From positions 1 to 64,000 of the forward strand of contig JAGWVJ010000006.1 in the NCBI GenBank assembly GCA_018970945.1: a stretch of DNA of 64,000 nucleotides, in the 5' to 3' direction. A program made the position numbers and the translations under genes. The stretch is from Cyanobacteria bacterium REEB417. GTDB lineage: Bacteria; Cyanobacteriota; Cyanobacteriia; PCC-6307; Cyanobiaceae. Under the pieces are notes generated by a model, which saw only the letters and a list, made by a program, of their open reading frames with translations, made no database searches and was not told the origin of the DNA. Shown one piece after another: positions 1,820-35,295 of the stretch (position 1 is the first letter of the stretch; every line of letters starts with the position of its first letter).

Positions 1820-1876
1820 AGCTTCAGGGACGGCGTTCCCCCGGTTGATAGTTTGGCGAGACTGCTTCATGACCTG

Positions 1877-3040
1877 GTGACCATTCAGCTCGGCCGCTCC
1901 CGCACCGTTCGCCGCGCTTACGGCATTGACGAGATCGCCCTGGTCCCGGGGGGGCGCACCGTCGATCCGGCCGTCACCGACAGCCACTGGACCCTCGGTG
2001 GGCACAGCCGCGAAATTCCGATCATCGCTAGTGCCATGGATGGCGTGGTGGACGTGGGCATGTGCGTCGAGCTCAGCCGGCTTGGTGCCCTCGGTGTGCT
2101 CAACCTTGAGGGTGTCCAGTGCCGATACGACGATCCCAACCCGGTGCTGGATCGGATCGCGGCGGTCGGCAGGGATGAGTTCGTGCCGCTCATGCAGGAG
2201 CTTTACAGCCAGCCGGTGCGTGAAGACTTGATCCGCCAGCGCATTGGGGAAATCAAGCAGCGCGGCGGCATCGCGGCCGTGAGTGCCACGCCCGTGGCGG
2301 CCCTACGGTTCGGCAAGGCCGTTGCCGAAGCTGGTGCCGATCTGTTCTTTGTGCAGGCCACCGTCGTCAGCACCGAGCACATCGGTCCGGAAGGCCAGGA
2401 GAGCCTTGACCTTGAAGCGCTCTGTCGCGATTTCGGTGTACCGGTGGTGATCGGCAACTGCGTCACCTACGACGTCGCCCTCAAGCTGATGCGTGCCGGC
2501 GCCGCGGGCGTGATGGTGGGTATCGGTCCCGGTGCCGCCTGCACCAGCCGAGGTGTGCTCGGCATTGGCATCCCCCAGGCCACCGCCGTGGCCGACTGCG
2601 CAGCTGCCCGGGACGATCACCGGCGCGAGACCGGTCGCCATGTGCCGGTGATCGCCGATGGGGGCATCGTGACCGGCGGTGACATCTGCAAGTGCCTGGC
2701 CTGTGGTGCCGATGCTGTGATGATCGGCTCGCCGATTGCCCGGGCTGCTGAGGCTCCCGGCCGGGGCTACCACTGGGGCATGGCCACTCCCAGCCCGGTG
2801 CTGCCGCGGGGCACCCGCATCAAGGTGGGCACCACCGGCAGCCTCGAAAAGATCCTGCGGGGACCGGCCAGCCTCGATGACGGCACCCAGAATCTGCTCG
2901 GCTGCATCCGCACTTCGATGGGCACTCTGGGGGCCCGCAATCTGGCTGAGATGCAGCAGGTCGAGGTGATCGTGGCCCCTTCCCTGCTAACCGAGGGCAA
3001 GGTCTACCAGAAGGCCCAGCAGCTCGGAATGGGAAAATAA
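1877..3040 (+). CDS. GuaB3-family IMP dehydrogenase-like protein
   Basis: Contains [78 protein letters not shown]; start GTG 1877 (or TTG 1853). Confidence 0.85.
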
Positions 3041-3109
3041 TGCAATGGCTCGGCGAAGAACCCCCCCGCCGGCTTCAAGACCCGGCTGCAGGCGCCCTAT
3101 CCTGACGCT

Positions 3110-3167
3110 GTGGGGGCTACGGCTCGCACACTCCTCACACCCCCGGCCCGGCGCGTCCGGGCCTTTT
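3110..3167 (+). ncRNA. yfr1: Yfr1 small regulatory RNA
   Basis: guaB-trxA intergenic location; TATCCT -10-like box at 3098-3103; 5' hairpin 3110-3129 GUG-G-GGGC(UACG)GCUC-G-CAC; unpaired ACTCCTCACAC at 3130-3140; terminator GGCCCGG-CGCGT-CCGGGCC-TTTT at 3145-3167. Confidence 0.88.
3145..3167 (+). terminator. Rho-independent terminator of Yfr1
   Basis: Perfect 7-bp GC stem GGCCCGG/CCGGGCC, 5-nt loop, followed by TTTT. Confidence 0.85.
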
Positions 3168-3265: not shown

Positions 3266-3589
<324 letters not shown>

Positions 3590-35105: not shown

Positions 35106-35177
<72 letters not shown>

Positions 35178-35295
35178 CTGGTCTGGAACCTCCAGCCCTC
35201 GCCAGGGGGTCTCCCCGGGGATGGCCGTTGGCCTGTTGCCTGCGACGTGCTTGACGGGGTCATCAGAATTGTGAGCGAGTGCGCACAGGCCTCCG

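Follow-up and report, generated by a model that had tools for sequence, protein, structure and literature searches.

Yfr1 is a regulatory RNA of about 57 nt, which nearly every cyanobacterium carries beside its thioredoxin gene. The family is already known across all cyanobacterial lineages, and a single RNA such as the one described here changes nothing that is known about it. Yfr1 has been confirmed experimentally in 10 of 10 strains tested, and its loss in low-light Prochlorococcus has been published (PMC2190773). Unpaired stretches of 16-20 nt were observed in the 2007 survey, whose search descriptor allows 12-20 nt (PMC2190773), and most yfr1 genes are located in the order guaB-yfr1-trxA (PMC2190773, PMC6778093). 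Porins were the first published targets of the RNA. In an E. coli reporter system, the porin leader PMM1121 is repressed 4.7-fold by Yfr1, and this repression is reversed by a second RNA, Yfr2 (PMC6778093). The Yfr1 and Yfr2 elements of Prochlorococcus MED4 were called nearly complementary, and in Yfr10 the seed is placed in the loop atop a stem, at a genomic location that varies (PMC6778093).

The window analysed here, a 64-kb stretch of DNA from Cyanobacteria bacterium REEB417, was searched with the covariance models of Rfam 15 (cmscan). Yfr1 (RF01116) was found at 3110-3165 on the forward strand with 61.8 bits and an E-value of 7.9e-10, and the match covered model positions 1-59 of 59, i.e. 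the full length. The covariance score had been named beforehand in the earlier note as a test that could refute a Yfr1 identity, and it came out far over the gathering score of 38 bits. When the whole assembly (1.96 Mb, 82 contigs, 79% complete) was searched, this was the only match (E = 5.9e-12), so the gene is present as a single copy. The features of the locus are as follows.

1853-3040, forward strand: guaB-type gene of the IMP dehydrogenase family, with a product of 395 aa; neighbour on the upstream side (Pfam PF00478, E = 1.4e-44)
3098-3103, forward strand: -10-like box TATCCT, 6 bases ahead of the inferred RNA start
3110-3167, forward strand: yfr1 gene, whole, containing the Rfam match
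3110-3129, forward strand: 5' stem-loop GTGGGGGCTACGGCTCGCAC, with 3 bp, a G.G mismatch, 4 bp and a C(UACG)G loop
3130-3140, forward strand: unpaired, ultraconserved ACUCCUCACAC (DNA ACTCCTCACAC), the predicted antisense seed, from sequence, fold and comparison of 30 loci
3145-3163, forward strand: terminator hairpin GGCCCGG-CGCGT-CCGGGCC, with 7 GC pairs and a 5-nt loop, from terminator scan and fold
3164-3167, forward strand: TTTT tail of the terminator
3266-3589, forward strand: trxA thioredoxin gene, 107 aa, downstream neighbour (Pfam PF00085, E = 5.2e-35)

All the elements of Yfr1 were found where the earlier note had put them, correct to the base, and the 5' stem-loop, the seed and the 7-bp GC terminator with TTTT were read and folded as it had claimed. 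The predicted fold is GUG.GGGC(UACG)GCUC.CAC, 15 unpaired nt (3130-3144), GGCCCGG(CGCGU)CCGGGCC and UUUU, with a minimum free energy of -27.6 kcal/mol (z = -2.0 against dinucleotide shuffles); this single structure makes up 94% of the ensemble, and the seed is unpaired in both the minimum free energy and the centroid structures. The 5' stem, with its single 1x1 mismatch, agrees with the family description of 6-10 bp interrupted by no more than one bulge or internal loop, the 3' hairpin agrees with that of a GC-rich stem of 6-9 bp followed by a U-tail, and the terminator scan picked exactly this hairpin. Judging from fold and family, the two stem-loops would hold the 11-nt seed single-stranded and protect the RNA.

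The unpaired stretch lies inside the descriptor range and is one base shorter than those surveyed, and there is also a 3-nt deletion against the Rfam consensus. These two points could be taken as signs of a degenerate Yfr1 remnant without function. Such a reading is the least probable of those weighed here, however, since the RF01116 match is full-length with both stems intact, the linker has an equal length in several relatives, and near-identical copies of the gene exist in four genomes of the same genus. Judged by its sequence, the segment is instead a genuine and ordinary orthologue of the known RNA.

The wider distribution was examined in 61 genomes, of which 53 had a Yfr1 match over the cut-off; some of the eight genomes lacking a match are incomplete and others are nearly complete. 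The seed was found in all of the 30 loci examined, i.e. the REEB417 locus and 29 from relatives. In an alignment of 27 sequences, standard pairs were kept at 94.7% over both stems, against 22.9-53.9% when the partners were slid, and none of 500 shuffles reached the observed value. For the 5' stem alone, pairs were kept in 95.7% of the cells of the same alignment. The loop-closing pair of the terminator showed a compensatory change, being G-C in 12 and A-U in 13 of the 27 sequences.

Compared with the Yfr1 of Prochlorococcus and Synechococcus (RF01116), the RNA of REEB417 has the same two stem-loops, seed and U-tailed terminator, a predicted length of about 56-58 nt (54-69 nt for the abundant transcripts of the family), a single copy and the same gene order. 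It differs in the 15-nt unpaired stretch, in its G+C-rich stems and in the C(UACG)G loop, but these differences are of no substance, as all of them are common to other Cyanobium/Synechococcus relatives. The UACG loop was considered as the mark of a variant Yfr1 and then dropped: a C(UNCG)G loop occurs in 12 of 23 picocyanobacterial loci, exactly C(UACG)G in 7 of the 23, and the same 20-nt 5' hairpin, base for base, in several other Cyanobium/Synechococcus genomes. Because UNCG loops are common among the relatives, no variant status can be given to this RNA, and its earlier description as a "GC-rich, UNCG-tetraloop variant" was overstated.

Upstream of the gene, each of the positions T(-12), A(-11) and T(-7) is shared by 20 of the 23 aligned loci, at a fixed spacing to the first G. 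The relatives have a conserved TAnnnT at the place of TATCCT, and the TATCCT box, present at 3098-3103 as had been claimed, keeps all three positions. No -35 element was conserved across the 23 aligned loci, and a scan upstream of yfr1 gave no match to the sigma-70 consensus. Since the -10 positions are conserved at a fixed spacing from the hairpin, a promoter of its own is supported for yfr1. The gene order was also very stable: trxA lies downstream in 30 of 30 loci, guaB lies upstream in 29, and both neighbours occur in the order guaB-yfr1-trxA in 29. Together with the Pfam matches of both neighbours, this bears out the view that the location ahead of trxA fits the synteny of Yfr1. However, the segment begins 69 nt past the guaB stop, ends about 100 nt ahead of trxA on the same strand and holds a working-looking terminator, and could accordingly be read as a cis-element, either the guaB transcription terminator or a trxA leader, with no independent small RNA. 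This is very improbable, given that the -10 motif is conserved at its spacing from the hairpin whereas the remaining upstream spacer is variable, that the seed is invariant though unpaired, and that Yfr1 was verified experimentally in every strain tested (PMC2190773). The best explanation, held as a whole with near certainty, is a yfr1 gene whose RNA would pair through its seed with target mRNAs and be subject to competition by Yfr2. Transcription of this single-copy gene would run rightwards from its own -10-type promoter and stop at its own terminator.

Judged by the guaB product, the closest named relatives are genomes of Cyanobium, Vulcanococcus and Synechococcus, which marks the window as that of a Cyanobium-like picocyanobacterium. 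Yfr1 is now annotated at its correct place in this assembly, where annotation by ORFs only would overlook it. One contig titled Bifidobacterium breve (L149) has a picocyanobacterial guaB (91% identity) and Yfr1, and this metagenome-assembled genome is therefore evidently mislabelled. The sole tRNA of the window is a tRNA-Val (CAC) at 35106-35178.

The complement of the seed, GUGUGAGGAGU, is present in three exact copies in the genome: on the opposite strand of yfr1, at C16:1368-1378 and at C21:2034-2044. The second copy falls inside an RNA of the Yfr2 family.

G000:C16:1317-1382 (L041:1317-1382), reverse strand: Yfr2/Cyano-1 RNA, 51.1 bits (cut-off 41)

The RNA carries GTGTGAGGAGT as its 5' motif, complementary to the Yfr1 seed at 11/11 positions; because it contains the C16 copy, the complementarity between Yfr1 and Yfr2 extends here to all 11 bases. 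As the bearer of the exact complement, Yfr2 would compete for the seed and sequester it. A Yfr2 signature was also recognised by eye, without covariance scoring, in the loci of five other relatives with the exact complement. The search with Cyano-2 (RF01702) gave nothing in this genome; the control genomes were equally silent, so that this absence is not evidence.

A candidate target was found in the leader of a porin gene.

G000:C59: leader of an OprB-type porin gene, ctctGTGTGAGGAcccATGAAACTC (= GTGTGAGGACCCATGAAA), arranged as GTGTGAGGA-CCC-ATG

In this leader, GUGUGAGGA stands three bases ahead of the AUG, and the ribosome-binding site is covered by 9 nt of complementarity to the seed; among the porin genes of the 79%-complete assembly, the site is present in this one only. 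The predicted duplex has an energy of -15.7 kcal/mol, and in this crude duplex scan 2 of 53 background ORFs of the window were lower, so by the model the energy is good and not exceptional. For target finding, the pattern TGTGAGGAN{2,9}ATGAAR (TGTGAGGA...ATGAAR) was searched in the 61 genomes. The TGTGAGGA...ATG pattern, which arises by chance as well, was found in 46 of 61 genomes and a scrambled control preserving the Shine-Dalgarno sequence in 38 of 61; since the control also matches many genomes, the pattern by itself is weak evidence. The weight is carried, on the sequences compared, by the concentration of the pattern loci at porins: 14 of 18 same-family loci examined encode homologues of the C59 porin (E < 1e-50), and nearly all porins at pattern loci start with MK(L/P)FQ-L-APAALGL. 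The control was compared by genomes hit, and the porin share was counted for the real pattern only.

As porins are the targets published first, these porin sites are a confirmation in new genomes and no discovery. By analogy, the mechanism is likely the published one, in which the seed would pair with GUGUGAGGA-type sequences in the Shine-Dalgarno regions of target mRNAs, porins first, and repress their translation, while Yfr2 sequesters the seed. The sequence, fold, family, synteny and complementarity of Yfr1 are established in this genome; for its transcription, pairing and repression in REEB417, we infer from the experiments on relatives. The presence of the seed, the Yfr2 complement and the porin site together in one genome supports the published model, and the conservation of the porin site across picocyanobacterial relatives provides a list of candidate porin leaders. 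The suggestion that targets may be encoded elsewhere in the genome is in agreement with published work, the C59 leader and Yfr2.

The third copy of the complement marks a second exact copy of the seed.

G000:C21:2034-2044 (L032:1501-1511): extra ACTCCTCACAC within a hairpin loop (7-bp stem), GGGGAGT-ACTCCTCAC-ACTCCCC

It is located between a 105-aa ORF on the reverse strand and an RNA methyltransferase-like ORF (named by eye) on the forward strand. On the forward strand it resembles Yfr10 in that a hairpin loop holds the seed, but no good terminator follows. Yfr10-type RNAs have an 11-nt seed identical to that of Yfr1, but in the Yfr1 described here the seed lies between two hairpins and at a conserved location. 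On the reverse strand, the C21 copy is the ribosome-binding region of the 105-aa ORF and forms a predicted duplex with Yfr1 of -28.7 kcal/mol. This ORF was considered as a prime Yfr1 target and rejected, because the site is missing upstream of its three same-genus homologues and is also a self-complementary hairpin. It is a tentative and rather doubtful idea that the C21 copy could be a lineage-specific layer of the Yfr1 network, either as a Yfr10-like competitor (forward strand) or as the target leader of a gene for a family-restricted 105-aa protein (reverse strand). In other genomes of the family, a second ACTCCTCACAC followed by a GC-rich hairpin and a T-run was seen at L089:1501 and L092:1501 (both on the minus strand) and at L103:1501; from their sequences, these copies are probably unannotated Yfr10-type RNAs. 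Near the C21 copy, a two-piece (permuted) cyanobacterial tmRNA lies at L032:851-1139 on the reverse strand (cyano_tmRNA, 309.8 bits).
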